Below are positions 5,902 through 22,834 of a DNA stretch of 64,000 bases, in pieces (positions within the stretch are counted from its first letter, which is position 1; every line of letters begins with the position of its first letter). The translations under genes were made by a program, and so were the position numbers. Origin of the DNA: an uncultured Poribacteria bacterium (GTDB lineage: Bacteria; Poribacteria; WGA-4E; PCPOR2b); contig OY282444.1 in NCBI GenBank assembly GCA_958296125.1, forward strand, positions 4,063,623 through 4,127,622. The letters are read 5' to 3'. The notes beneath the pieces were generated by a model. That model was not told where the DNA came from. It saw only the letters and a list, made by a program, of their open reading frames with translations, and made no database searches.

Positions 5902-8900
5902 GTGATAGATCTTCTGCGGCAGTCAAACACCTATCAATTGCTTGTTGAAACCCTGACCGCTCAGTTTTCAGGGTCGAAGTGTGCCCTGACCTCGTCAAAT
6001 CAGCGAATAGATCTTCCCAAACCTTGGTTGCGCGGTCTGCATGGCGCATCTACGGCTTATTTGCTCAGTGCATTGGCAGCCGATTTTGCCGACCAATCTT
6101 TTCTCGTCGTCCTTCCGACGCAGCCTGAAGCTGAGAAAATCATCCAAGATTTACCCGCCTATCACTTTGAGGGGGCCCATCTCTTTCCGCAATGGCAGAA
6201 TTTCCTTTACGACGGTATTTCCCCAACAAAAAATGTCGTTGCAGAACGACTCATCTGTTTGTATCAACTGTTGAAGGGAGACCGCACGTTTGTTGTCACA
6301 TCAATCCATGCGTTGATGCACAAAATTCTGCCCCAATCGGTTGTAGAATCCGCCTTCCTGACCCTCCGCATCGGTGATGAGATTGCTCCCGACGAAGTGG
6401 TTGAACAGCTTCTGTGCAACGGTTATCAGCGCGTAGATCTCGTAGAAGTCAAGGGAGAGTTAGCCCGTCGTGGCGACATTCTGGACGTTTACCCGTTGAC
6501 CACTGACGCGCCCATCCGAATTGAGTTCTTTGGCGATGAGATCGACGCTATTCGATCTTTCGATCCCGCCTCACAGCGCTCTGTTTCCGATGGGGGTGAT
6601 GATGAACCGGGGGCAATTACACTGTGTCCGGTTCGAGAAATCATCTTGTCCCCTGAAACTCTCGATCTGTGGAAGACCCGCGCAGAGATATTGATTCAAA
6701 AAAACGAGTCGCCCAAGTACCGAAACGCGATCAACGAGATTACACACCGTCTCGAAACGGAAACGGATCCGGCAGGGTTGGAAGCCTTGCTTCCGATGTT
6801 ATACGAAGATACCAGTACCCTCACGAATTATCTATCCCCGCAGACTGTCGTTCTCTTGATTGAGCCGACCTGGATGGCGCGTGAGGGGACTCAACTCATC
6901 GAAAATACGAAGGATCTTTATGAACGAAAACTAGCATTTGATCAGTTTATGGTGTCACCGGATGAGACGTTTGTGCCGTTTGAATCAGTAATCTCCGCTT
7001 TGCAGACGCATCCCCTTGTTCGCACGTCGTTGACTCCACCTGCACTCAATACGGAGGAACAGGTTGAGGAAATTGCTTTCGGTATGCGTCCGCTCGGTCT
7101 TCCACGTAGTAATTATCGGCTGGTCATGGATCAGATCAAGGAGTGGACTGATGAAGGCTATTTCGTTAATTTCCTCTGTGATAATCTAAAGAGCGCAGAT
7201 CGGCTAAACAACATCTTGGCAGATCGAGACTTACCTGCAGCCCAGACGGCGGTGAAAATCGGCAGTATCAGCGAGGGGTTTATCAGTGAAACCCTTAAGT
7301 TCATCACGCTGTCTGAAGATGAGTTGTTTGGACGCGAACACCGTCGCCACCGCAAGACCTCCTTCAAAGAGGGGACCCCTATCCTGAGTTTGATTGATCT
7401 CAAGGAAGGGGATTATGTGGTGCATGTCTCACACGGAATCGGTCTCTACGCGGGGATTCGCCGCCTTGATATCGATGGAAAGCCACAGGACTTTCTCGTG
7501 CTAGACTATGCGGACGGGGGTAGGCTGTATGTTCCGACCTATCAAATCGATCTCGTGCAGAAGTATATTGGCGGGCAAGAGGACAGAAAGTTACGGCTGG
7601 ATAAACTCGGTGGAACATCATGGGAGCGGGTCAAAGCCAAAGTAAAAGCCTCCATAGAGCAGATGGCGGGGGAATTACTGGAACTGTATGCTATTCGTGA
7701 ATCCCGCGAGGGCCATGCCTTTCCAGCGGATACCCCTTGGCAGAAAGAGTTTGATGTGCTATTTCCTTATGAAGAGACCCCAGATCAGCAGAAGGCGATT
7801 GAGGAGGTCAAGCGGGATATGGAACGCCTTCGGCCCATGGATCGGCTAATCTGCGGAGACGTTGGATACGGAAAAACAGAGGTTGCGCTCCGTGCGGCGT
7901 TCAAATCAGTGATGGCAGGCAAACAGGTTGCTCTTCTCGCTCCAACCACAATTCTCACGCTGCAACACTTTAATACGTTCCAGCAGCGGTTCGCCCCTTT
8001 TCCCGTTCAGGTCGAAATGCTGAATCGCTTCCGAACGGATAAAGAAGCGAAGGGGGTTGTGGAGGGGTTGGCAAATGGCACGGTTGATATCGTTATCGGC
8101 ACCCACGCTTTGCTTTCAAAAAACATTAAATTCCGCGAGCTCGGTTTGCTTGTGGTTGATGAGGAACATCGTTTCGGGGTGAAGCACAAAGAGAAGGTTA
8201 AACAGCTGAAGCAGACGGTTGATGTATTAACCTTGACAGCGACACCGATTCCGCGTACACTCCACATGTCCCTTGTAGGCATCCGTGACTTCAGCATAAT
8301 CAATACGCCTCCGGAAAATCGGCTGCCGATTGAGACCTATGTGATTGAGTATAATCCCGATGTGGTTCGAGATGCGATTTTGCGCGAGATGGAACGGGGT
8401 GGACAGATCTTCTTTGTTCACAACCGTGTCCAGAGTATCGCGAGCATCGCGGCTGCAATCCAGGACCTTGTGCCGCTCGCTCGAGTCTGCATGGCACACG
8501 GGCAAATGCCTGAACGTCAACTAGAAAAGGTGATGATGGAGTTCATCAACCACAAATACGATGTTTTGGTGTGCACCATGATTATCGAGTCCGGTGTGGA
8601 TATCCCAACTGTCAACACCATTCTGATTAATCGGGCAGACGCGTTTGGGTTAGCCCAACTTTACCAGTTACGCGGGCGAGTCGGTCGCGATCAGTATCAG
8701 GCTTACGGTTACCTTTTCTACCCACAAGGACGGGCGATTACAGAGGGTGCTCAAAAACGTTTGCGGGTCATCGAAGAGTTCACCGACCTGGGCTCCGGGT
8801 TCAAGATTGCCCTCCGCGACCTTGAGATTCGGGGCACCGGCAACATTCTCGGTTCAGAGCAGCACGGCCATATCACCGCTGTGGGTTACGACATGTACTG

Positions 8901-9390
8901 CAAACTCCTTGAGGAAGCGGTACAAAAACTGAAGGGTGAGGAGGTTGAAGAAACGGTCGAAACGCGGATCAACCTTCCTATTGAAGCCTATTTGCCCGAT
9001 GAATATGTCCCGGACAGCCGACAGAAGGTCGCGCTTTACAAAAAGATTGCTGCCTTGGAAACGGAGGTCGATCGGCAGAAACTTGAGGAGGAGATGGTTG
9101 ACCGATATGGAAAAATCCCCAAGCCAGTTGAGATGCTCCTCGATATTGCCGACTTAAAACAGCTCAGTCAACAGTTGGGGGTTGATGGAATCGCCGCAGG
9201 CTTGGAAAGCATCAAGGTCACATTTGACGCAGCAAAAACAAGCCTTGACCCTCGTAAGCTGATCCGACTTATCGAGCAGGATCGGCGGGTCTCGATAACA
9301 CCCCCTGCGCGTATGACGATCCGTATGAAGGGCTTGGAGGGGAAAACGCTCTTGCTTGTGCTCAAGGGTATCCTTGGGAAATTAATGTGA
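5902..9390 (+). CDS. mfd: Transcription-repair coupling factor Mfd
   Basis: 1162 residues, close to the family's usual 1150. Mfd removes stalled RNA polymerase from DNA lesions and recruits UvrA. Visible parts in order: N-terminal UvrB-like region, the RNA polymerase interaction domain (EGDYVVHVSHGIGLYAGI ... YADGGRLYVP), then the RecG-like translocase with Walker A GDVGYGKTE, the DEEH box (VVDEEHRFGVKHKE), TLTATPIPRTL, and motif VI QLRGRVGRDQYQAYGY. The C-terminal TRCF domain (IEAYLPDEYVPDSRQKVALY) is present. The start is GTG with AGAAAG before it. It is followed a few genes later by uvrA, its partner in transcription-coupled repair. Confidence 0.97.
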   Translation: MIDLLRQSNTYQLLVETLTAQFSGSKCALTSSNQRIDLPKPWLRGLHGASTAYLLSALAADFADQSFLVVLPTQPEAEKIIQDLPAYHFEGAHLFPQWQNFLYDGISPTKNVVAERLICLYQLLKGDRTFVVTSIHALMHKILPQSVVESAFLTLRIGDEIAPDEVVEQLLCNGYQRVDLVEVKGELARRGDILDVYPLTTDAPIRIEFFGDEIDAIRSFDPASQRSVSDGGDDEPGAITLCPVREIILSPETLDLWKTRAEILIQKNESPKYRNAINEITHRLETETDPAGLEALLPMLYEDTSTLTNYLSPQTVVLLIEPTWMAREGTQLIENTKDLYERKLAFDQFMVSPDETFVPFESVISALQTHPLVRTSLTPPALNTEEQVEEIAFGMRPLGLPRSNYRLVMDQIKEWTDEGYFVNFLCDNLKSADRLNNILADRDLPAAQTAVKIGSISEGFISETLKFITLSEDELFGREHRRHRKTSFKEGTPILSLIDLKEGDYVVHVSHGIGLYAGIRRLDIDGKPQDFLVLDYADGGRLYVPTYQIDLVQKYIGGQEDRKLRLDKLGGTSWERVKAKVKASIEQMAGELLELYAIRESREGHAFPADTPWQKEFDVLFPYEETPDQQKAIEEVKRDMERLRPMDRLICGDVGYGKTEVALRAAFKSVMAGKQVALLAPTTILTLQHFNTFQQRFAPFPVQVEMLNRFRTDKEAKGVVEGLANGTVDIVIGTHALLSKNIKFRELGLLVVDEEHRFGVKHKEKVKQLKQTVDVLTLTATPIPRTLHMSLVGIRDFSIINTPPENRLPIETYVIEYNPDVVRDAILREMERGGQIFFVHNRVQSIASIAAAIQDLVPLARVCMAHGQMPERQLEKVMMEFINHKYDVLVCTMIIESGVDIPTVNTILINRADAFGLAQLYQLRGRVGRDQYQAYGYLFYPQGRAITEGAQKRLRVIEEFTDLGSGFKIALRDLEIRGTGNILGSEQHGHITAVGYDMYCKLLEEAVQKLKGEEVEETVETRINLPIEAYLPDEYVPDSRQKVALYKKIAALETEVDRQKLEEEMVDRYGKIPKPVEMLLDIADLKQLSQQLGVDGIAAGLESIKVTFDAAKTSLDPRKLIRLIEQDRRVSITPPARMTIRMKGLEGKTLLLVLKGILGKLM

Positions 9391-9462
9391 GGCGTGAAAC
9401 GTGATGTGTATTGCCTCACAGTGTTTGTGGGGCATGCGTATTTTTTAAGCAATATGAGTATA

Positions 9463-9484
9463 CCACCAACCGAGAGGATGGTGG
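9463..9484 (+). other. Small hairpin upstream of the first parvulin-like gene
   Basis: CCACCA and TGGTGG form a six-base stem around a ten-base loop, about 40 bases before the ATG of the next gene. No T-run follows, so it is not a classical terminator; it may shape the leader. Confidence 0.25.
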
Positions 9485-9522
9485 CTTCGCATTCTATGTC
9501 AATCAGAAAGGAGCTATACACA

Positions 9523-10560
9523 ATGAAAAAAATAGTAATAATTTTCGTCGTTATTGCGGCGATCGGTTTGAGCAGTGAGCAAATTGTCAAGGCGCAAAAC
9601 GTCGCTGGACCGATGGATGAGAGCCAGATTATTGTGGCTCGATACGAATGGAACAGCACACACGAAATTTCGCTTGCAATGCTTAATGCGGAAATTGCAG
9701 CACTACCGGAACATAAACAGAAAGGCTATCAGTCCAAAGCTGGTAAGCTCATATTTCTGGAAGATTTCATCAGCCAACAGCTAAAACTCCTCGCGGCTGC
9801 TGATAAAGGATTCGACAAAAAAGAGGAGTTTCACAAAAAAGGGGACGATTATAAGCATCAGTTGATGGTCGAACTCTTGACCGAAATTGAAGTCGATGAA
9901 AAAATTGTCATCACTGAGGAAAAGCTGCAGCAGTATTACGAAGAAAATAAAGATGCCTATGTGGACAAGGAACAGGTGCGGGCAACTTGCATTACGGTAG
10001 CCGATAAAGAACTTGCACAGACAACGCTAGAGGCGATTCAGGCTGGCGAGGACATTTTTGATGCGGTGAAAGAACTTGCAGAAGAAGAGGTATTGATCGG
10101 CCCAGGTTCAAATCCGAGCGATCCTGGTGACACCGGCTTCTTTACACGAGATATTTCTGCCCGTGCACAGGCTTTCGTTGACACGGTCTTTGCGATGGAA
10201 GTCGGCGAAATGACTGAGGAAGTTTTTGAGCAGGAGGTCGAAGAGGACATCTATTATATGATTTTCCGAAAGGAAGAGCATCAGCCAGAACGTCAGCAGA
10301 CCTTTGAAGAGGTCAAGCCTCGACTTGAGTATCCCCTAAAACGCGAGATGAAGCGGACGCGTATCCTAGAATGGTTGGAAGTGCTTACTGCACAGAGTAA
10401 ACTGAAAACGTATCCAGACCTCCTTCCTCCACCCGTGATGCCAGAAGAGGAAGAAGATCCGGAAAATGAAACATCTGACCTGCCAGAGCCAGAGGAGGCA
10501 GTAGAAAGTGAATCCCTCGATGAGGGTGATGCCCCCGCCGATCCTGAAACAGAGCCTTAG
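9523..10560 (+). CDS. Exported parvulin-like (PpiC/SurA-type) protein, copy A
   Basis: 345 residues from the ATG at 9523, chosen because AAAGGAG precedes it and a signal peptide (MKKIVIIFVVIAAIG...VKAQ) begins there; an upstream GTG frame has no support. The middle follows the SurA/PpiC plan: a helical N-part, LQQYYEENKDAYVDKEQVR, then a parvulin-like domain (about residues 155-255) with GDTGFFTRD and MEVGEMTEEVF. The parvulin signature 'RHILV' reads RATCITV, so the conserved His is Cys. That suggests weak or no prolyl isomerase activity and a chaperone role. The tail is acidic low-complexity (DLPEPEEAVESESLDEGD). It is a tandem paralogue of the next gene and sits in the SurA/LptD cluster. 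Confidence 0.75.
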   Translation: MKKIVIIFVVIAAIGLSSEQIVKAQNVAGPMDESQIIVARYEWNSTHEISLAMLNAEIAALPEHKQKGYQSKAGKLIFLEDFISQQLKLLAAADKGFDKKEEFHKKGDDYKHQLMVELLTEIEVDEKIVITEEKLQQYYEENKDAYVDKEQVRATCITVADKELAQTTLEAIQAGEDIFDAVKELAEEEVLIGPGSNPSDPGDTGFFTRDISARAQAFVDTVFAMEVGEMTEEVFEQEVEEDIYYMIFRKEEHQPERQQTFEEVKPRLEYPLKREMKRTRILEWLEVLTAQSKLKTYPDLLPPPVMPEEEEDPENETSDLPEPEEAVESESLDEGDAPADPETEP

Positions 10561-10582
10561 AGCCTGAAGCTGTGAATTAAGG
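10477..10582 (+). repeat. Tail repeat, copy 1 (106 bp)
   Basis: The end of parvulin copy A plus its stop and about 20 bases downstream (TAGAGCCTGAAGCTGTGAATTAAGG region) is nearly identical to 11602-11725. Copy 1 lacks an in-frame 18-base DEGESP unit found in copy 2. Confidence 0.85.
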
Positions 10583-10692
10583 CAGTAGTGGAGCACAAAA
10601 TAGGGTGGATTCGTCGTGTTTAGAAATTGGCTGATAGAGGGCTGTCAAAGTTGAACAACTGTATATCACGCAAAATTTAAGGAGGTATAACT

Positions 10693-11703
10693 GTGAGATT
10701 ATTGGGAATTATCGGTTTTATCTTAATCGGTGCCGTTGCTGTTAGCATTTCTTTGAACGGTTGTGGGGGAAAAGCCGGGGCTGAAGGCACTGTGATTGCT
10801 GAGTTTGAATGGAATGGGAAACACCACATCACGCTTGAAGAGATGCTACAGGAGATAAGTGAACTCCCTACCTACAAACAACACCAGTACCAAGAAGCAG
10901 AAGGCGGGTTTGAGGAATATATGAACCTGATGGCGGAGAGCCGTCTCATACTTTGCCTTGCCAAAGATCGAAAGCTTGATGAGGATGCTGGGATTCTGAA
11001 AAAAGTGCAAGACTATTACCATGAATTGCTCGTTGACAGCATTACAGAAGTCGAAGTGGATCAGAAACTTAAACTGACCGAAGAAGACTACCTGCTTTAT
11101 TATGAAGAGAATAAGGGTGACTATGTTGATCCAGAACAGGTGCGACTCACCTGCATAACCCTTACAAGCGAGGATCGAGCGAAGGAGGTCTTCCAACGAA
11201 TCAAGGATGGGGAAGATATCGTTACCGTTGCCGCAGAACTATCTGCAGATGGGGAGTTAGTCGGACCCGGCACAAATACTGAAAGCCCCGGTGACACCGA
11301 ATTTTTCGATCGCCAGACCTATTCACGACGTGCGAAAGCCTTCAGCGATATGGCATTTGAACTGGAAGTCGGTCAAATGAACGAGGACATTCTTCATATC
11401 GAACTGGATGAGGATAACTATTACCTAATCTTCCGCAAGGAGGAATCCCAGCCGGAGCGCCAACAAACGCTTGACGAAAAAAGTGTAAGACGCAATGTGG
11501 AAAGACAGGTAGAGAATCAGAAGCGTGAAGGACTTATGACCGATTGGCTCATCCGGCTCCATGAACAGGCACAGGTCAAGACCTTTGCAGATCGAATCCC
11601 CGACCTGCCAGAGCCAGAGGAGGCAGTAGAAAGTGAACCGTTAGATGAGGGTGAATCCCCCGATGAGGGTGATGCCCCCGCCGATCCTGAAATAGAGCCT
11701 TAG
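10693..11703 (+). CDS. Parvulin-like lipoprotein, copy B
   Basis: 336 residues starting at GTG 10693, directly after a strong AAGGAGGT. The signal segment ends in a lipobox-like SLNGC (Cys24), so this copy is predicted to be lipidated, unlike copy A. Layout matches copy A: EEDYLLYYEENKGDYVDPEQ, a parvulin-like domain with GDTEFFDRQ and LEVGQMNEDIL, and an acidic tail (LPEPEEAVESEPLDEGESP). Again the parvulin His position is Cys (RLTCITL). The ortholog class is uncertain; PrsA/PpiC-like chaperones that hold unfolded envelope proteins are the closest described functions. It lies 34 bases upstream of the surA-like gene and is likely cotranscribed with it. Confidence 0.75.
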   Translation: MRLLGIIGFILIGAVAVSISLNGCGGKAGAEGTVIAEFEWNGKHHITLEEMLQEISELPTYKQHQYQEAEGGFEEYMNLMAESRLILCLAKDRKLDEDAGILKKVQDYYHELLVDSITEVEVDQKLKLTEEDYLLYYEENKGDYVDPEQVRLTCITLTSEDRAKEVFQRIKDGEDIVTVAAELSADGELVGPGTNTESPGDTEFFDRQTYSRRAKAFSDMAFELEVGQMNEDILHIELDEDNYYLIFRKEESQPERQQTLDEKSVRRNVERQVENQKREGLMTDWLIRLHEQAQVKTFADRIPDLPEPEEAVESEPLDEGESPDEGDAPADPEIEP

Positions 11704-11737: not shown

Positions 11738-13030
11738 ATGAAAACATTTCGTTTCTTTACCCTGATCCTATTCACTATTCATTTTGGAATCAATCCTGCT
11801 GCTGCGCGACGGTTCGATCAAATTATCGCTTATGTCAACGGGGACGTGATCACTAGATGGGAGCTCAACAGCGTTGTGAATCAAAAAGCGTTGGAACTCC
11901 AGCAAATTTACCGGTTCAGTGAGCGTGAAGCGCTGCAAAAGGCGGAGCAGGAACGGGCTGCGCTCCTGGACCAGTTGATACGCCAGATGCTTCTCGTCGA
12001 AACGGCATTAACGCTAAAAATTGAAATCACAGAGGTTGAAGTGGAGCAATATCTGCAAAGCTTCAAGGACCAGTACAAGATCGAGACTGAAGCAGAGTTT
12101 GCTCAAGCGTTAAAGAAAGAAGGATATACCCTGATGTCTTTCCGTGAACAAGCCAAACGCAATCTGATGGCGGAACGACTCGTAATGCAACGTATCCTCC
12201 CTAGACTCCAAATCCGGGACTCGGACGTGCAGCAGTTTTTTGAAGAAAACCGCTCGCAGTTGCCAACTAAAACGGACAGTGTTTACCTTAGGCATATCTT
12301 TGTTGCTTTCAAGCCGAGCGAGGCGGATCGCAAGCTAGCCCTTGACGAGATTGACACAATTCTTCAGGAATTAAAGGCTGGGAAAGATTTTGAGAAACTC
12401 GCGCAACGGTATGCTAACGATGAGCATAGAAAGGCGGGAATTGGGGCATTAAACGAACTGCCGATTGCGGAGGTGGACAATCTATCTGCTACCTTCCGTG
12501 ATGCGCTCGCGGGGCTCAATACCGGCGCAACTAGTGAGCCGATCGAAGGCAATGATGGGTTTTATCTTTTCAAAGTTGAGCGCAAGGATGATCAGGGCAT
12601 AGCGTTTCGGCATTTGGTTGTCGGTCTGAAGCCGAGCGAAGCGGCGATGGAAGCTGCTTATGAACGCGCAGATAGTCTCCTGCAGCGGTTAAACCAGGGT
12701 GAGGATTTCAACACGCTTGCCCGACAATACTCCGACGACTCACAGACGAAAGCCAATAGTGGGGCTCTCGGGATTCGTTCACTCAGCGAGCTAAATCCCG
12801 AAACTCGGAAAATTATCGAAGGGCTTGCTATCGGAGCGCATAGCACGCCGGTCAAAACGACGTATGGCATGCATATTTTCAAGATTGATAGCCGTGCTGC
12901 CCCTGGGTTGAGCGATGCGGAAAAAGACCAGATCCGAACGATGCTACGTCAGCAAAAATTTCAAGAGGAATGGCAAATTTACACGGATTTGCTCAAGGAA
13001 AATTCCTTCATAAAAATTAAATTGGACTAA
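11738..13030 (+). CDS. surA: SurA-like periplasmic chaperone with two parvulin domains
   Basis: 430 residues, the size of E. coli SurA. Signal peptide, then the SurA N-domain (FDQIIAYVNGDVITRWEL, ALLDQLIRQMLLVE, the 'VNxxvIt..el' pattern), then two parvulin domains: about residues 180-280 (VYLRHIFVAF ... GALNELP) and 290-390 (AFRHLVVGLKPSEA ... GALGIRSLSEL ... TTYGMHIFKI). Both keep the His of the RHI/RHL strand, unlike the two preceding paralogues. Known role of SurA: escort of unfolded outer-membrane proteins, LptD being a classic client. A strong AAGGAGGT precedes the ATG. It lies directly upstream of an LptD gene, so chaperone and client are adjacent. Confidence 0.9.
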   Translation: MKTFRFFTLILFTIHFGINPAAARRFDQIIAYVNGDVITRWELNSVVNQKALELQQIYRFSEREALQKAEQERAALLDQLIRQMLLVETALTLKIEITEVEVEQYLQSFKDQYKIETEAEFAQALKKEGYTLMSFREQAKRNLMAERLVMQRILPRLQIRDSDVQQFFEENRSQLPTKTDSVYLRHIFVAFKPSEADRKLALDEIDTILQELKAGKDFEKLAQRYANDEHRKAGIGALNELPIAEVDNLSATFRDALAGLNTGATSEPIEGNDGFYLFKVERKDDQGIAFRHLVVGLKPSEAAMEAAYERADSLLQRLNQGEDFNTLARQYSDDSQTKANSGALGIRSLSELNPETRKIIEGLAIGAHSTPVKTTYGMHIFKIDSRAAPGLSDAEKDQIRTMLRQQKFQEEWQIYTDLLKENSFIKIKLD

Positions 13031-13152: not shown

Positions 13153-16100
13153 ATGGAAAGGAGGGAAAAACACAAATGGCAGAAAATAGCAGGCAGTGGA
13201 AGACAATCAATTTTCCAGTTTCCCAACCCTCTTTGTCCCCAGTTGCTTAATCCCTTTTTGGGATTCACGCTTCAGGTCCTATCACTCGCGATTCTCACGC
13301 TTTACTTAATTTCGCCCGCGGGCGAATTAGCCGCCCAAACCGACCCGCCGCCGGCTACCGATGCGGATGTTTCCGACGGACAGCCTGACGCGTCATCAGA
13401 AAGCTCTTCAGCGACAGATTCACCTTCACCAGAAGAATCTACGGGCGAGGAGTCCCCTACAGATGATGATACGTCTGTCATACCGCCTGACGAGACATTA
13501 GAAACCCTACCAGCGACAGATTCGCCTTCACCAGAAGCCCCTACCCAAGCTAGTCGAAAGCTCAATCCGGAGAATATGTCACCCGAAGAGGGGGACCTTC
13601 TTGCAAAGGGCGATGATCTAACCTTTCATAATAACCTGATCCAGATTCACGGCAACGGACTGATTAAATACGACGACGTTGTGCTCTATGCTGACCATAT
13701 CTGGGCGAATTTCGACGAAAATGTGATGCGGGCAGCAGGAAATGTGCACCTGCTCGTCGGAAACGAAGAAACTTTTGCAAATGAACTCATTTACAACCTT
13801 GAAACGAAAAAAGGGATTATTCGCGAAGGGTTCACTTTCAGTGACCCATGGTATTACCGCGGCACTGAAATCTTCAAGGTTGAAGATGATGAATCCTACA
13901 TCCGTGGTGGTGCTTTGACGACATGCTCTCTCAAGCATCCCCATTTCTACTTCAGCGCATCGCAGATTATCGTCAAGATAGGCAAAGAGTTGATTGCCAA
14001 GAATATTGTGCTGAGGGTCGGGGGGATTCCGCTCTTCTATTTTCCTGCCTACCGTCGTGATCTTCGCCAAGAAGATAAAATTGCCAAGATAATTGTCAAA
14101 GTTGGAACAGATAGCTATCAAGGGGTTTTCCTCAGCGTTATCTTGCCGCTTGCGCGTCGTTATCGATATGACGGTGCCCTGCTGTTTGATCACTCTGGCC
14201 GCCGGGGAAGTGGGGGTGGCTTTGAGGGAAAATATCGTGTAAACGATGTCAAGTTTCAAGAAATTATTGTTCCCTTACCTCCCAATGCAACGCCGAGTGA
14301 GCGGACAAAACTAGAAGAGAAAGCGCAGGAGTTAGCGGACAGGTTGGAGGGTGAGTATGACCGGTATAAGCTGCGCCAACTGTTTCTGGAATATAAGATT
14401 TCTGAAGAAGACATCGCCGCTGCCCGCGAAAAGGTGGAGAACATCTATGCTCAACTACAAGAGGCGGACGCAGATTTCGCAAAGATTGCACAAAATCAAT
14501 CGACCCATCAGGAAACATCCTATCAGGGTGGCGACATGGGGTTTTTGGTGCGCGGAGAGCGGGACGAGGAGGATGAACTTCGACTGGATCCAATCCTCGA
14601 AGAGGTGGTTTTTCAACTGGAACCGGGGGAAATTACACCGATCCTCAGGACAGAATCTGGCTTCCATATTTTAACGATTGAGCGTGTGCTTGATGTATAT
14701 GGCGAACGAGAGCTCCAGATCCGCCGAATAGATGTAGCGATAGAACCAAGCGAAGACACCCGTAACACAATTCAGGGGACAGCAAGGGAAATCCAGGAGC
14801 GTGCAACTGCGGGAGAAGCGCTCGAACAATTAGTTGGGGAATATGAAGATGTTGAAATTGCTGAAGCCAATGAAGGGGCAGGGTTTCTGTTAAATGAAAT
14901 GGATCGGCGGTGGAAACACCCCGTAAGCCGACTAGCGGCACCCGGGGAAGTAACTTGGCCCGTGAATACCGAGCGAGGCGTTTACATCTTTGAGTTAATC
15001 GAAAAGGAGGCAACCCCGACCTTTGAAGAAATTGCACGTCGATTTGAAGCGGAGTGGGAGACGATTGAAGCGGAATTAGGGGAAGCTGCAACGACAGGAG
15101 ATGGTGAAGGGGAACAACCGGAAGAAGGAACGGAGGGGCGGGGTGATAAGGAAATAAACGGGCATGAGGAAAGAAGCGAAGGGGAAGGCGATATAAGGAC
15201 ACAGGAAGATAATACGCAAGCTGCTTTGAATCCCGATAAAATCGGGGCCGATGAGATGACAAATCCCCCGGAAGAAGGAGCGGAACCGGAGAAGTTGCAG
15301 GTCTACCAACAATACGATTATCGGGGACGGTGGGAGACACCGAACACCATCTACTCACAAGCGCAGCGGCTCTACAGCGGTGAGCACACCGGGATAATCA
15401 AGACTCGTAAAGGGTATCGTTTAATTAAGGTCGATAAAAGGCGCACTTATAGGGGAGACCTTTACTTCTATACCAACGATGAATTTTCTTACGATCGTCG
15501 AAAGCCGTTCAAAACTGGGAGACGATGGAATCTCCGGTGGGGGCACCGGCACGCTTTCTATACCCCATGGGACAGCCGAGCGAAAGGACGAAGACCTGTG
15601 AGTTTTGTGGGACGTGTGGCGTGGCGAGCAAAGGAATTTGAAGAAGAGGGATTTGGAATCAATGAATCTGCGGTTAATTCTTTTGGTATGTTCACATGGG
15701 GAACCGCTTTTAATTCGTTGAATTATGCCGATAGAGATGAAGACGGAAACTTAAGATTTTCTTACAAGACAATTGGGGAGTTCTTGGGGAGGTTACAGGT
15801 TAATCATACCTTAGACTTCACGGGTGAAGGGACCACAAACTTGCAAAAGCTGCCCACGCTCGATCTTTCACTTAGACGCATGCAATTAAATCGGTTGCCT
15901 GTTTTCAAAACTATCAATTCGGGGCTAACCAAAGTCGCGGATCAGTTACACACCGATCTTCCAATCCTTTCAATGTTCGCTTTTCCAACGCTTGAAAACA
16001 TTAGCTTTGATCTGGAGACGAATCTTGGTAATTTTTTCCGTGAACGGTATCGAGAGGAAGAGGATGTCTACTTGCAAGCGGTGGATATCGGTTTCGATCT

Positions 16101-17112
16101 TCGTAAGCAGTCAGTGCTGCAAATAATCCCGAATCGAGAGTTGCGCGTTGACATGGATTTCGACACGAACCTTATCTGGCATGACAAGGACCGGGAAGGA
16201 AATCGAAACATTTTCCGAAGTATATACAGCACGCGGTTAGCTGCCAGCAATCTACTGTTTCGGATTTATGACATCAGTTTTATTCCGGGGGCGCGTCGCA
16301 TGCGCCACCAAATCAACTCAAGGGTATCATTTGATTACGCGCCACCTGTCGACAGAGAAGATGCTCCCGAACTCTATCCTTTTGGTCCAAGTGTCTACTT
16401 CTTTGAAAGGAAAACCCTCGCTTACAACTTAGATACCAGCATTGAAGTTAAGACCCGCGGCAGCAGATCTGCGCTCCGCGTGCTTCATTTTAATACACGA
16501 ATATCGGCGGATTTCACGAGATTTGAGGCGTTGGGGGAACGTCGATATGTACCGATTGAAAGCAGACTGACAATAGTTCCACTGGCGAGTCGAAACCTGA
16601 ATATCAGGTTCACATCGACACATGATCCGAATGAATCGCCCCTCGATGGAAAACGACTCAAACAGATTGGTTTCCGATCCAACATCAGTTACCGCCGTGA
16701 CAAATGGAATATAACAGTCGGAAACGCCTTTACCAAAAGGACGCAACGCGCCTCTCGAAGCCTCACGGGCAGTTTCCGATTTCGTCCAAGTCGATTACTT
16801 GAATTGAATCTCAGTGTTAATTATGACTGGATCGAGAAACAGTTCTACTCGCAGAGTGTAACGCTGCGGCGCAACTTGCATAATTGGAATATGACGATTA
16901 GATGGCACCGCATCGGGATTAAGCGGGAACCTCCCTTCGATAATGTGCGACAAGATTTCACTTTTCAGATTAACCTGATTGCAGAGCCCGCTGCCTCAGT
17001 TGGGGTTGGCTATGATGCCACAACGGATACATGGGGATTCCGTACCCTGCCTGCCGGCGTGCCTTACGATGCCTTCGGGGTTGGAAACTCACTTGGACGA
17101 TCTTACTTCTAA
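13153..17112 (+). CDS. lptD: LptD-like outer-membrane LPS assembly protein with embedded parvulin-like domains
   Basis: 1319 residues against about 780 for E. coli LptD. A long signal region and a Ser/Pro/Glu-rich linker (ATDSPSPE twice) come first. Residues about 153-370 are the OstA/LptD periplasmic beta-domain, with the hallmark GGALTTCSLKHPHFYF (Cys258) and KNIVLRVGGIPLFYFPAYRR. Then come inserts: about 404-512 parvulin-like (DFAKIAQNQS, YQGGDMGFLVRGE, LEPGEITPILRTESGFHI); about 521-617 a second, degenerate one; an acidic linker to about 715; and a third partial unit (YSGEHTGIIKTRKGYRLIKV). From about 770 a beta-barrel follows and ends in Phe, as a BAM signal should. The conserved parvulin His is replaced (RQLFL, RRIDV). 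The frame is unbroken. Family role: inserting lipopolysaccharide into the outer leaflet. Confidence 0.85.
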   Translation: MERREKHKWQKIAGSGRQSIFQFPNPLCPQLLNPFLGFTLQVLSLAILTLYLISPAGELAAQTDPPPATDADVSDGQPDASSESSSATDSPSPEESTGEESPTDDDTSVIPPDETLETLPATDSPSPEAPTQASRKLNPENMSPEEGDLLAKGDDLTFHNNLIQIHGNGLIKYDDVVLYADHIWANFDENVMRAAGNVHLLVGNEETFANELIYNLETKKGIIREGFTFSDPWYYRGTEIFKVEDDESYIRGGALTTCSLKHPHFYFSASQIIVKIGKELIAKNIVLRVGGIPLFYFPAYRRDLRQEDKIAKIIVKVGTDSYQGVFLSVILPLARRYRYDGALLFDHSGRRGSGGGFEGKYRVNDVKFQEIIVPLPPNATPSERTKLEEKAQELADRLEGEYDRYKLRQLFLEYKISEEDIAAAREKVENIYAQLQEADADFAKIAQNQSTHQETSYQGGDMGFLVRGERDEEDELRLDPILEEVVFQLEPGEITPILRTESGFHILTIERVLDVYGERELQIRRIDVAIEPSEDTRNTIQGTAREIQERATAGEALEQLVGEYEDVEIAEANEGAGFLLNEMDRRWKHPVSRLAAPGEVTWPVNTERGVYIFELIEKEATPTFEEIARRFEAEWETIEAELGEAATTGDGEGEQPEEGTEGRGDKEINGHEERSEGEGDIRTQEDNTQAALNPDKIGADEMTNPPEEGAEPEKLQVYQQYDYRGRWETPNTIYSQAQRLYSGEHTGIIKTRKGYRLIKVDKRRTYRGDLYFYTNDEFSYDRRKPFKTGRRWNLRWGHRHAFYTPWDSRAKGRRPVSFVGRVAWRAKEFEEEGFGINESAVNSFGMFTWGTAFNSLNYADRDEDGNLRFSYKTIGEFLGRLQVNHTLDFTGEGTTNLQKLPTLDLSLRRMQLNRLPVFKTINSGLTKVADQLHTDLPILSMFAFPTLENISFDLETNLGNFFRERYREEEDVYLQAVDIGFDLRKQSVLQIIPNRELRVDMDFDTNLIWHDKDREGNRNIFRSIYSTRLAASNLLFRIYDISFIPGARRMRHQINSRVSFDYAPPVDREDAPELYPFGPSVYFFERKTLAYNLDTSIEVKTRGSRSALRVLHFNTRISADFTRFEALGERRYVPIESRLTIVPLASRNLNIRFTSTHDPNESPLDGKRLKQIGFRSNISYRRDKWNITVGNAFTKRTQRASRSLTGSFRFRPSRLLELNLSVNYDWIEKQFYSQSVTLRRNLHNWNMTIRWHRIGIKREPPFDNVRQDFTFQINLIAEPAASVGVGYDATTDTWGFRTLPAGVPYDAFGVGNSLGRSYF

Positions 17113-17323
17113 CACCAAATCTACAGTGCGAAAAGCAACTAAATCTTCTGCTTAGTGGCGGCCCTTCGCGTTGATTGAGGGCAGGTCTGTTTTTCTCACG
17201 TAGAAATATGGTAAAATGCGACTCATTGATGGTTCAATTTGAGAATATATTAGGATACAGAATCTCATTAAATGAATGGAATCGCTGGTCATTACGGAAA
17301 GGCCTTCAGCCAAAGGAAAATTT

Positions 17324-20300
17324 ATGCCGGAAGAATTCATCGACATCCGCGGCGCACGCGAACATAATCTCAGAAACATCGATCTCAAGCTCCCCAAAGA
17401 CAAGCTCATCGTCTTCACCGGTGTCAGCGGTTCTGGGAAATCATCGCTGGCATTCGATACCGTCTACGCTGAAGGACAACGCCGCTACATCGAATCCCTC
17501 TCCGCTTATGCTCGTCAGTTCCTTGGACAGTTGGAAAAACCCGACGTTGATTTCATCGGGGGTCTCTCCCCAGCCATCTCAATTGATCAGAAATCGGGCG
17601 GGAACAATCCTCGCTCAACGGTCGCAACGATCACAGAAATCTATGACTACCTGCGCGTCCTGTTTGCGCGTGTGGGCACACCGCACTGCCTCAAGTGCGG
17701 TGCCCCGGTGGGTGCCCAAACGGCAACGGCGATCATCAACCAGATTGTAAACTTACCGCAGCGGACTCGTATCTTAATCCTTGCACCAATTGTCAGTGGG
17801 CGTCGCGGCGAGTATCGGGACGATCTTGAGGACGCGCTCAAGACAGGGTTTGTCCGTGCCCGAATTGATGGACAAATCTATGACCTACCGGCTGAAATTC
17901 AGCTTGATCGGAATCAGCGGCATCACATTGAAATCGTCGTGGATCGGATCATTATCAAACCCGATATCCGCAGCCGCGTCGCGGAAGCAGTTGAAACCGC
18001 GCTACGTATGGGGGAGGGCCGCCTAATTGTGAACATCGTCGGAGGGGAACCGGAGGCGGGCGACCTCTTGTTCGGGGTGGACTACACCTGCGTGCACTGC
18101 AACATCAGCTATGAACCCCCCGCCCCACGAAATTTCTCCTTCAACAGTCCTGCGGGGATGTGCCCAACCTGTAAGGGACTCGGAACGCTAACGAAGATGG
18201 ACCCCGATCTGGTTGTCCCCGATCCAACTCTATCGATTTGGAACGGAGCGATTGTCTTTTGGGGGCGGCTTGACACGCTACAGACACGACACTACGCCGA
18301 GAGTTTGGCAGCGCACTTCGGCTTCAGTCTCGATACACCGTGGGAACAGTTGAACGATGTGCATCAGCAAGCTATCCTTTATGGCACTGGCAAAGAGGAG
18401 ATTCCCTTCGTCTATCGCTCCCATCGTAATCGCCGCTATAAGTACCGGGCCGCGTTTGAAGGCGTGATTCCGCCCGGAGAACGAAAGTATTTCCAAGCAA
18501 CCTCGGAGCTTGTGAAGCGTTACTACGGAAAATACATGGTTTCTGGTCCCTGTCCAGATTGTAACGGGACACGACTCAAGCCAGAGGTCAAGGCTGTGAC
18601 AATCGACGGAAAATCCATCCTTGATGTCGTTGAAATGGCGGTTAGGGATTGTTTTACTTTCTTTGAAAAACTCCAACTGCCAGCGCGTGAGGCGTTCATT
18701 GCGACCGATTTGCTGAAAGAGATTCAGGGCCGCCTCTGGTTCTTAATGAATGTTGGGCTGCACTACCTCACCTTGGATCGCACCGCACCGACGCTTTCCG
18801 GCGGCGAATCGCAACGGATTCGGTTAGCCAGCCAAATCGGGGCGGGCTTGCGAGGGGTGGTCTACGTCCTTGACGAGCCCAGTATTGGTTTGCACCCGCG
18901 TGATAACCAGCACCTCCTCACGACGCTCAAACATCTCCGGGATCAGGGCAACACCGTAATTGTTGTCGAACATGACGAAGATACAATGTGGGCGGGGGAT
19001 ATGATTGTTGATTTCGGGCCCGGACCGGGAATCAAGGGGGGTGAGATTGCGGCAATCGGTGCGCCGCAAGAGATTGCTGAAGGTTCAACCTCTCTGACAG
19101 CGCAATATCTCCGTGGCGAACAACAAATCGACATACCCACCGAACGCCGTTCAATTGGAAATCAATGGATCGAGATCTGTGGGGCACGTCATAACAATCT
19201 TAAAGACGTTGATGTGCGAATTCCGATCGGGATTTTCACCTCCGTGACGGGTGTCAGCGGCTCTGGCAAAAGTTCGCTTATCAATGATATTCTATACGAG
19301 GCACTTGCCCGCGATCTGATGAAGGCACACGCTCAGCCGGGGGAGTATGATCGAATACGAGCAGGCACTACAGAGGGCGATCCTCCGCCCGATCATACGC
19401 AAGCCACATTTTCAGCTCCAATTGACGAAGTCCTCGATAAAGTCATTGATATTGATCAGTCGCCGATTGGGCGGACACCGCGATCGAATCCTGCCACGTA
19501 CACCAAAGTGTTTGATCAGATCCGTGCCCTTTACGCCGAGATGTCAGAGTCCAAAGTGCGCGGTTACAAACCGGGACGTTTCAGCTTCAATGTCAAAGGC
19601 GGTCGATGCGAAGCCTGTGAAGGCAATGGCTCAAAGCGGATCGAAATGCACTTTATTGCCGATGTTTGGGTGAAGTGTAATATTTGTCAGGGAAAACGAT
19701 ATGATGACGAAACGCTACAGGTCGAATACAGGGGCGCGCATATCTCCGATGTGCTCAACATGGACGTGCAAGAGGCTTTAGAGCACTTTGCGAACGTGCC
19801 GAAAATTGCAAAGATTCTACAAACCCTGCATGATGTCGGTCTGGACTACATCAAGCTTGGTCAGTCGGCACCAACCCTCTCCGGCGGCGAGGCACAACGG
19901 ATTAAGTTGGCGCGGGAGCTGGCTAAACGTAGTACGGGCAAAACCCTCTATATTCTTGACGAGCCGACGACTGGGTTGCACTTCGACGATGTGAAGAAAC
20001 TCCTCAAAGTGTTGCACCAACTCGTTGATGTGGGCAATACCGTTGTCGTCATCGAGCACAACTTGGAAGTAGTAAAGACAGCGGACTATCTTATTGACCT
20101 CGGGCCCGAAGGGGGTGAAGAGGGGGGCTATGTCGTTGCGACGGGGACACCGGAGGAAGTGGCAGCGGTTGAGGAGTCGTATACGGGGATGGCATTGAAG
20201 CTGGCATTGGAGCCGAGAAGGATGGAAGCATCTTCGATTAACTATACACAATATGCGATACATAATGCACCGCACGTCCTACAAGAATCAACAACCTCTT

Positions 20301-22834
20301 ATGAATTAGCTGGCACGAATGAGCAGAAATACATCTCCGTGCATGGGGCACATGAGCACAATCTGAAAAACATCAATGTAGACATCCCCCATCGGAAGTT
20401 CACCACATTCACCGGCGTGAGTGGTTCAGGAAAATCGTCGCTGGCGTTGGACACAATCTATGCAGAAGGGCAGCGGCGCTACATCGAATCCCTTTCAGCG
20501 TATGCGCGGCAATTTTTAGGGCAATTAGAGAAGCCGAAGGTCGAGAAGATTGAGGGGCTCTCGCCGGCAATAGCGATCGAACAGAAAGCACCAAGCAAGA
20601 ATCCGCGGTCTACGGTCGGGACAGTCACAGAAATTTACGACTACCTGCGGGTGCTTTATGCACGAGTCGGAATCGCCTACTGCTCGCAGTGCGGGTCGGA
20701 AATCAGCGTCCAATCCGTGCAGCAGATTGTTGACAAGATCATCGCATTGCCGAGTGGAACACAGCTTTATGTCCTGTCTCCGCTAGTGCTGCGCCCTAAT
20801 GAGGATTATCCCGATGCCTTCCGCCGTCTACAGCGTGAGGGCTATGCTCGCATCAAGATTAACGGGGAGGTTTACCCAATCGATCAAGCCCCGAATATTA
20901 GAAAGAGCATCCGGCACGATGTCAAAATTGTCGTCGATCGCCTCACCCTTGAACCTGATGAACGTGGACGTTTAACCGAAGCTGTTGAAACCTCAACGCA
21001 GCAGAGCGGTGGGATTGTGGCGGTGGGAGTCATGACTGAAGGAAAACAGGCGAGCGAGGGAGCAGGGATCACGCATCATGTTTTCAGCGAGCACTTCGCT
21101 TGCATCCCGTGTGGTTTGAGTTTTCCCGAACTGACACCGCGTCACTTCTCATTCAACAGTTCTATCGGTCAGTGTCCGGCGTGTGAAGGCATTGGGACAA
21201 TCGGTCATCGGTTATACACTTGTCAGGAGTGCAAAGGCACGCGAATTCAGCCATTGGCAAGAGGCGTAACGTTGGGTCGGACAACCATCGCTGAGGTGAC
21301 AGCGATGCCGATTGGAAGGGCTGCTCATTTTTTCGACCGCCTCGATCTGCCAGCATATCAGATGGAGATTGGCGGAGAATTGCTCAAGGAGATCCGACAA
21401 CGACTTCGATTCCTTGTTGATATTGGACTACACTACCTGACGCTAGACCGGCCGGCACCAAGTCTCTCAGGGGGGGAGATGCAGCGCATCCGTCTGGCAA
21501 GCCAACTTGGCAGCGGCCTCACAGGGGTGACATACATCCTTGATGAACCGAGTATCGGATTGCACCAGCGGGATCAGGAGCGACTCTTGAACGCATTGAA
21601 AGGGCTTCGCGATCTTGGCAACAGTGTCTTGGTTGTCGAACACGATTTGGAAACGATGCTGGCATCAGATTACATTCTTGATTTTGGTCCCCGCGCTGGG
21701 AAGTTCGGCGGTGAGATTGTCGTCGCCGGTTCTCCAACTGAAATCCAGCAGAGCGAAAATTCGCTGACGGGCGGTTATCTCACAGGGACGCTCAAGATTG
21801 AGGTCCCTCCGCAAAGGCGCCAAGGCAAAGGGGAGTGGCTTGAGATGGTGGGCATCCGAACCAATAACTTGCAGAATATCGATGTTGAAATCCCGCTGGG
21901 GACGCTGACATGCGTGACAGGTGTTTCCGGATCAGGAAAGAGTTCGCTGATTGAGGAGACGCTGTATCCTGTGCTCGTCTCTAATCTGAATCGAACGCGG
22001 ATGCGGGCGGGGAAGTATCGAATGATTCGTGGGTTGGAATATCTTGACAAAGTAATCAACATCGATCAACAGCCAATCGGCGACACCCCCCGATCGAATC
22101 CGGCCACCTACACTGACCTATTCACCAAGATTCGTTATCTCTTTGCCGATCTGCCGGATGCTAAGGTCCACGGTTTCGATTCCCGTCGATTCAGTTTTAA
22201 CCAGAAGACGGGACAGTGCGAAACATGTCGTGGGCATGGCTTCAATAAGGTTGAGATGCACTTTCTCGCGGATGTGTGGGTCAAGTGTGAGACCTGCAGC
22301 GGCACCGGCTATAACCACGAAACGTTGCAGATCCGCTATAAGGGCAAAAGCATCGCCGATATTCTGGGGATGACAGTGCAGGAAGCGCTAGCCCATTTCC
22401 ACAGCGTGCCACCTATCCATAGACCCTTGCAGATGTTATACGATGTTGGTCTGGATTACATTGAACTCGGTCAGGTGGCGACAACGCTCTCTGGTGGTGA
22501 ATCTCAACGTGTCAAGCTGGCGCGTGAGCTCTCGAAGCGGAGCACTGGCAAAACCATCTACATCATGGATGAACCGACAACGGGCCTACATTTTGATGAT
22601 GTGCAGAAGTTACTGATGGTGCTCAACCGCTTGGTGGACAAGGGCAACACGATTGTCATCATTGAACACAACATGGACGTGATCAAATCCGCCGATTGGA
22701 TTATTGACTTGGGCCCCGAGGGCGGGGCGGAAGGTGGGGAGGTTGTCGCTATGGGGATGCCAGAGGAGGTGGTGGCTGTGGAGAAATCGGATACCGGACG
22801 GTTTTTGCGAAAGGCACTCACGCTGCCAGTCTGA
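17324..22834 (+). CDS. uvrA: Double-length UvrA (two UvrA copies in one polypeptide)
   Basis: 1836 residues from the ATG at 17324, preceded by AAAGGA; an ATG at 17276 is the alternative. UvrA is the damage-sensing ABC ATPase of nucleotide excision repair. Two complete UvrA-like halves meet near residue 1000. All four nucleotide sites look intact: Walker A (GVSGSGKSS) near 33, 643, 1031 and 1533, and signatures (LSGGExQR) near 491, 852, 1381 and 1722, each with a DEPSIGLH or DEPTTGLH Walker B. Zinc motifs are present ([32 protein letters not shown]). The second half lacks about 108 residues between CPACEGIG and CQECKGTR that the first half has. Chlamydia also has a double UvrA; how the halves share work is unknown. 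Confidence 0.95.

Follow-up and report, generated by a model that had tools for sequence, protein, structure and literature searches.

An LptD with Parvulin Domains inside Its Chain

The LptD protein of the phylum Poribacteria is a member of the LptD family with a new architecture, in which parvulin domains occupy a periplasmic turn of the outer membrane β-barrel. The protein described here, P0001 (1319 residues), is encoded at 13153..17112 of a window of 64,000 nucleotides from an uncultured Poribacteria bacterium (assembly GCA_958296125.1, contig OY282444.1, positions 4,063,623 to 4,127,622); coordinates are those of the window, and the genes from mfd to lptD lie on its forward (+) strand. 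We consider the architecture, the location of the insert, and its conservation across the phylum to be supported to near certainty. An earlier note, made from the sequence alone, had described this frame as an unbroken LptD of 1319 codons with SurA-like parvulin modules within the chain, and both parts of that description stand. The frame is free of stops on a single 5.16 Mb contig that represents a complete Poribacteria genome, and parvulins are found in the chain by Pfam, profile, and structure matches. Literature searches found no described LptD of this architecture, in agreement with the earlier note.

The assignment to LptD is based on both ends of the protein. Escherichia coli LptD matches the N-terminal domain of P0001 (hhalign E 3e-5), including the FTSC and VGPVPIFYSPY motifs, residues 151–370 match the NCBIfam LptD models (E 3.6e-4), and the TTC and GxxPxFYxP motifs of the LptD β-taco are present. 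Hidden Markov models (HMMs) of the LptD N-terminal domain and of the barrel recover LptDs of other phyla with E values of 1e-28 to 1e-43 and down to 1e-27, respectively. In Pfam, PF00639 (Rotamase) matches three stretches of P0001 (E 4e-29), as do Rotamase_3 (1.5e-17) and Rotamase_2 (1.3e-12), so that the parvulin half of the profile check proposed earlier gave the expected result. The other half did not: PF04453 (LptD_C) and PF19838 do not match P0001, and some LptDs of other phyla likewise score nothing, although a relative from the sister class (locus L080, genome G084), judged against curated Pfam cut-offs, passes PF19838 (LptD_2) with 36 bits (cut-off 22.5) and Rotamase with 221 bits in one frame. 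Genome-wide protein and profile searches identified P0001 as the sole LptD candidate in its genome, which also encodes LpxC, LpxL, and LptA, B, C, E, F, and G; these include an lpxL-lptC-lptA-lptB-rpoN-hpf cluster, two LptF/G proteins, and LptE. Based on its family and on these lipid A and Lpt pathway genes, we infer that P0001 is probably the lipopolysaccharide translocon of Poribacteria.

AlphaFold2 was run twice, once on a 65-row alignment (mean predicted local distance difference test, pLDDT, 76; predicted template modeling score, pTM, 0.62) and once independently on an alignment led by a 36%-identical homolog (pLDDT 77.5, pTM 0.53). Both models give the same chain order, namely the β-taco, barrel strands b1–b4, the parvulin insert, and strands b5–b26. 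The barrel has exactly 26 strands, from b1 at model residues 176–182 to b26 at model residues 1128–1137. In Foldseek searches of the PDB, LptD (4q35) is the first match of the two models (E 4.7e-22 and 4.4e-20; target template modeling score up to 0.61), followed in both by parvulins (8hm4), PpiD, and SurA; both folds are therefore present in one chain. The structure prediction proposed in the earlier note thus yields folded parvulin domains, inside a chain that folds as LptD.

An assembly error that merged separate genes, or a barrel other than LptD, would be in keeping with the lack of a PF04453 match in P0001, but we regard either as exceedingly improbable. Sixty-five distinct homologs align with P0001 over its full length, several of them on single-contig genomes, and the frame is therefore not an assembly join; this refutes the fusion of a surA-like gene with an outer membrane protein gene. 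A non-LptD barrel is refuted by LptD as the first Foldseek match of both models and by the LptD_2 match above cut-off in L080.

The Insert Occupies Periplasmic Turn T2 of the Barrel

The insert comprises about 390 residues between strands b4 and b5. Strands b1–b4 (residues 314–374; 14092..14274) were delimited by DSSP assignment on the AlphaFold2 models and by alignment with the LptDs of E. coli and 20 members of other phyla. In this alignment the empty site falls between EGKYRVND and RGDLYFYTND, which are joined by a short turn in the other proteins; the E. coli counterpart is ENEFRYLSQAGAGLMELDYLP (residues ~273–293), with the b4–b5 link at ~281–285. In E. coli LptD, extracellular loop 3 spans Tyr291–Trp311 and loop 4 spans Lys333–Thr356 (PMC12685063), a deletion of residues 330–352 removes part of b7 and loop 4 (PMC10567701), and the barrel has 13 extracellular loops and 12 periplasmic turns (PMC4353691). 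Taken together with the alignment, these limits and counts identify the b4–b5 link as periplasmic turn T2. An insertion in extracellular loop 2 is ruled out by the E. coli alignment and the published loop limits. The insert had originally been placed between the β-taco and the barrel; it lies instead within the barrel, after b4.

On either side of the insert the protein follows the LptD plan. The N-terminal 148 residues (13153..13596), as read from the translation, contain a signal peptide region and a low-complexity linker rich in Ser, Thr, Pro, and acidic residues; this part is poorly conserved, and matches to homologs mostly start at residues 86–150. The periplasmic β-taco (residues 149–312; 13597..14088), with TTC258 and GGIPLFYFP, is supported by hhalign, NCBIfam, and the AlphaFold2 strands. 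Strands b5–b26 (residues 754–1275; 15412..16977) include a long L8 and are supported by AlphaFold2, Foldseek, and the barrel HMM. The tail beyond b26 (residues 1276–1319; 16978..17109) is highly conserved by identity and by the ratio of nonsynonymous to synonymous substitution rates (dN/dS); it is the most conserved part of P0001 (mean pairwise identity 0.61, dN/dS 0.025) despite low model confidence.

Two Parvulins Are Nested in a Third

The insert contains three parvulin units, which we term F1, F2, and F3. F1, which resembles SurA P1 (residues 404–515; 14362..14697), is supported by Pfam Rotamase, PDB matches to SurA and PrsA, and AlphaFold2, and F2, which resembles SurA P2 (residues 518–619; 14704..15009), by Pfam, PDB profile matches, AlphaFold2, and residue counts. 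The C-terminal part of F3 (residues 717–762; 15301..15438), recognized from an AlphaFold2 strand and the parvulin HMM, lacks the first 36 positions of the parvulin profile when taken alone. These are supplied by residues 364–401 (14242..14355), just past b4, which form a first strand and helix α1. When the two parts are joined, the parvulin HMM score increases by a mean of 6.8 bits (12.4 bits in P0001), whereas random segments of the same protein change it by −0.9 ± 0.8 bits. F3 is therefore complete and split by the F1–F2 pair, which is nested between its first helix and the remainder; the third unit, previously taken as partial, is whole by both the joining score and the AlphaFold2 models. 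The first and last strands of F3 run on into b4 and b5, which reach 23 and 25 residues in both models, b4 extending into the insert and the last strand of F3 continuing as b5 over model residues 616–640 (residues 754–778).

Between F2 and the C-terminal part of F3, residues 620–716 (15010..15300) contain helix α2 of F3 followed by an acidic linker, delimited by AlphaFold2 pLDDT. The long acidic linker reported in the earlier note is present here and in the order of this genome, but it is disordered (residues ~650–715; pLDDT below 50 at model residues 508–575), variable (occupancy 0.80), and missing from the deep branches.

Catalysis of peptidyl-prolyl isomerization by the inserted domains is unlikely, judging from the loss of the catalytic histidine pair in F1, F2, and F3. 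In F1 of P0001, Gln409 replaces the N-terminal histidine and His505 is retained; the N-terminal position is occupied by Gln in 56 of 65 sequences and by Gln, Arg, or Glu overall. Both histidines are missing from F2 and F3 in nearly all sequences, and from F2 of P0001.

Phylum-Wide Occurrence and Selection

A survey of LptD homologs, as had been suggested, places the insert throughout essentially the whole phylum and in none of the LptDs from outside it. The parvulin-bearing architecture is present in at least 81 of the 85 Poribacteria genomes, among which we saw no insert-free LptD. A protein search finds lptD in 83 of the 85, including a weak match in genome G049; in the more sensitive profile search G013, G049, and G057, all fragmented assemblies, give weak matches in the parvulin range. 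In one further genome (G004), lptD lies in two overlapping frames of 875 and 460 residues (L040:6862-10549), a frameshift or sequencing error.

Inspected domain by domain, 0 of 59 LptDs from other phyla contain a parvulin. These 59 include all 23 frames above 1000 residues listed in the survey (1022–1789 residues), which were considered as candidates for similar inserts; none has a parvulin, and in many the OstA region at the N-terminus is extended or repeated. At loci L140–L162, such OstA-like regions bring many other-phyla LptDs to 1000–1800 residues.

Both genomes of the sister class have a further parvulin in turn T5 (residues 707–828 in L080 of G084 and 247–378 in L079 of G083). This turn is on the same side of the membrane as T2, which points to a role at the periplasmic face. 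In these sister-class domains (L080:1-3642, L079:1-2334) the two parts of the parvulin apparently stand in reverse order, C-terminal before N-terminal, which resembles a circular permutation.

The dN/dS values within the genus are 0.06 (β-taco), 0.09 (barrel), 0.13 (F1), 0.17 (F2), 0.19 (C-terminal half of F3), and 0.37 (linker). Pairwise identity is 0.36–0.40 for the inserted parvulins and 0.42 for the barrel. Given the parvulin dN/dS values of 0.13–0.19, the insert is maintained, its parvulins being under purifying selection.

Loss of the C-Terminal Disulfide Cysteine

LptDs of most other phyla (L120–L177, L179) have an RDLHCWE motif about 40–60 residues from the C-terminus, the cysteine of which pairs with that of the N-domain TTC. 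The pair, TTC and (RD)LHCW, is present in 52 of the 59 other-phyla LptDs. In Poribacteria other than the sister-class genome G084 the motif reads RNLHDWN, and in P0001 alignment places RRNLHNWN (residues 1239–1250; 16867..16902) at this site. The C-terminal cysteine is Asp or Asn in 62 of 65 sequences, Val in two, and Cys in one. The single retained cysteine belongs to the sole sister-class row (G084), and all 64 main-class sequences have a replacement. Most Poribacteria LptDs have one cysteine and those of deep family f7 have none; the long-range pair between N-domain and barrel is absent from P0001. We do not take the missing pair as excluding LptD membership, because 7 of the 59 other LptDs also lack it. 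Because the cysteine persists in the sister class together with the insert, insertion and disulfide loss were separate events, and the insert is older than the loss. In E. coli, native disulfide formation controls activation of the translocon (PMC10567701).

Gene Neighborhood

The genes upstream of lptD form a conserved cluster, mfd-ppiC-ppiC-surA-lptD, found across the phylum at almost all loci with enough flank. It begins with mfd (5902..9390; Pfam TRCF, CarD_TRCF_RID, and UvrB_inter), followed by two genes for PpiC-like parvulin proteins (9394..10560 and 10693..11703; both Pfam Rotamase_2), the second of which has an apparent lipobox and is conserved upstream of surA. The surA gene (11738..13030; Pfam SurA_N_3, SurA_N, and Rotamase), which encodes an N-domain and two parvulins, lies directly upstream of lptD. 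The two PpiC-like genes (9394-11703) share a near-identical acidic tail, PEPEEAVESE.LDEG...DAPADPE.EP, which suggests recent duplication or gene conversion; in deep family f7 they form one frame of about 700 residues. In family f5 (L038, genome G002) a sigma-70 factor gene rather than surA is directly upstream of lptD, and the cluster is therefore broken there. Downstream of lptD, 17276-22834 encodes a UvrA-like protein of 1852 residues, whose single frame apparently contains two UvrA units, like the 1809-residue NCBIfam model PRK00635.

Relation to SurA and Possible Function

F1 and F2 together match residues 101–366 of SurA, the P1–P2 region (profile E 5e-15), and their closest relatives are P1 and P2 of Poribacterial SurA, in the same order. 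A domain tree places them near P1 and P2 of deep-branch SurA proteins, but with about 106 columns many of its forks are not resolved, and a SurA-type origin is thus suggested rather than proven. The neighboring PpiC-like proteins show no similarity to F1 or F2 above that of shuffled sequence, and an origin of the insert from them was rejected. Only P1–P2 matches the insert; the N- and C-terminal core of SurA is absent from it, and the SurA_N families match the upstream gene and not P0001. The SurA core binds the β-barrel assembly machinery (BAM) and alone complements loss of surA, and the contribution of the isomerase domains of SurA is characterized as still elusive (PMC11366764). Because the core is absent and surA is kept directly upstream, the built-in module is, by its domain content, not a full cis-SurA.

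Sequence and models show that turn T2 is replaced by a stalk of three parvulins, in which F3 continues b4 and b5 and the SurA-type P1–P2 pair is nested inside F3. As to its role, we tentatively favor one without catalysis, in which the insert would act in the periplasm as a clamp or as a module for assembly. The stalk would stand next to the β-taco, where the barrel opens to the periplasm. From there it could serve in cis as a clamp or an aid to assembly, binding extended or edge segments of LptD (the β-taco or the late-closing N-terminal strands) or of putative direct partners, and it may help the barrel and the N-domain to adopt their proper arrangement while BAM assists assembly. In the main class the clamp may partly substitute for the long-range disulfide, because this bond cannot form there. 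The stronger proposal, that the cis parvulin clamp replaced the disulfide checkpoint, such that the exporter would be assembled and locked by catalytically dead chaperone domains and not by thiol oxidation, we consider rather doubtful. Several points weigh against these ideas. Placement of the domains relative to the β-taco is uncertain in view of the pTM of the two models, replacement of the disulfide rests on one lineage in which insertion and cysteine loss were separate events, and the clamp itself is deduced from sequence and models.

Other functions are compatible with part of these observations. LptD of E. coli is a SurA client, and the likeness of F1 and F2 to P1 and P2 in unchanged order, together with surA directly upstream, would fit built-in parvulins that keep the unfolded barrel soluble and hand it to BAM as E. 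coli SurA does. The self-chaperoning exporter imagined in the earlier note is nevertheless unproven and, in our opinion, unlikely, as the BAM-binding core (PMC11366764) and the catalytic histidine pair are missing and a free SurA is encoded beside lptD at almost all loci with enough upstream flank. The conserved gene cluster, the binding of an aromatic peptide by SurA P1 (PMC11366764), and the extra T5 parvulin in both sister-class genomes would suit a docking platform that recruits SurA, the two PpiC-like proteins, LptA, LptE, or BAM lipoproteins to the mouth of LptD and organizes the traffic of outer membrane proteins and lipopolysaccharide; this too seems improbable to us, since these partners are only candidates and gene order alone does not demonstrate contact. 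Least probable of the functional readings is a near-neutral ornament, a tolerated insertion with no function except not to block folding. The lost catalytic residues, the divergence of F2 beyond that of the barrel, and the free variation of the linker would agree with an ornament, but it accounts poorly for an insert that is kept in essentially the whole phylum, with no insert-free copy found there, and whose parvulins have low dN/dS and an identity near that of the barrel. A clamp or assembly module hence remains the reading we prefer.

Comparison with Known Systems

Most Gram-negative bacteria cannot live without LptD, and no other outer membrane protein is as hard to assemble or as heavily checked, with SurA, BAM, LptE, LptM, BepA, and disulfide exchange all taking part. 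A phylum with SurA-type parvulins in the LptD chain and the usual disulfide partner gone is a natural test of what parvulins contribute to outer membrane protein assembly, and its LptD indicates that periplasmic turns of a barrel can host folded, nested domains. Poribacteria are a phylum of sponge symbionts, and LptD delivers lipopolysaccharide to the cell surface.

PrsA, PpiC, and PpiD (8hm4, 2jzv, 8zht) share the parvulin fold with the insert; unlike it, they are soluble or membrane-anchored foldases, and the PpiC-like neighbors are not specially similar to F1 and F2. The P1–P2 pair of SurA (1m5y) has two parvulins in the order of F1–F2, matched over SurA 101–366, but the insert has neither the N-domain nor the C-terminal helix of the SurA core, lies within an outer membrane barrel, is predicted to be non-catalytic, and is nested in a split third parvulin. 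With known LptDs (4q35, 5iv9, 7omm), the Poribacterial protein shares the β-taco, the 26-strand barrel, the long inward L8, the TTC motif, and the company of LptE and a full Lpt pathway. It differs from them in that P0001 scores below PF04453, in the Asp or Asn that replaces the C-terminal disulfide cysteine in the main class, and in the insert of three parvulins, about 390 residues long, that occupies turn T2.

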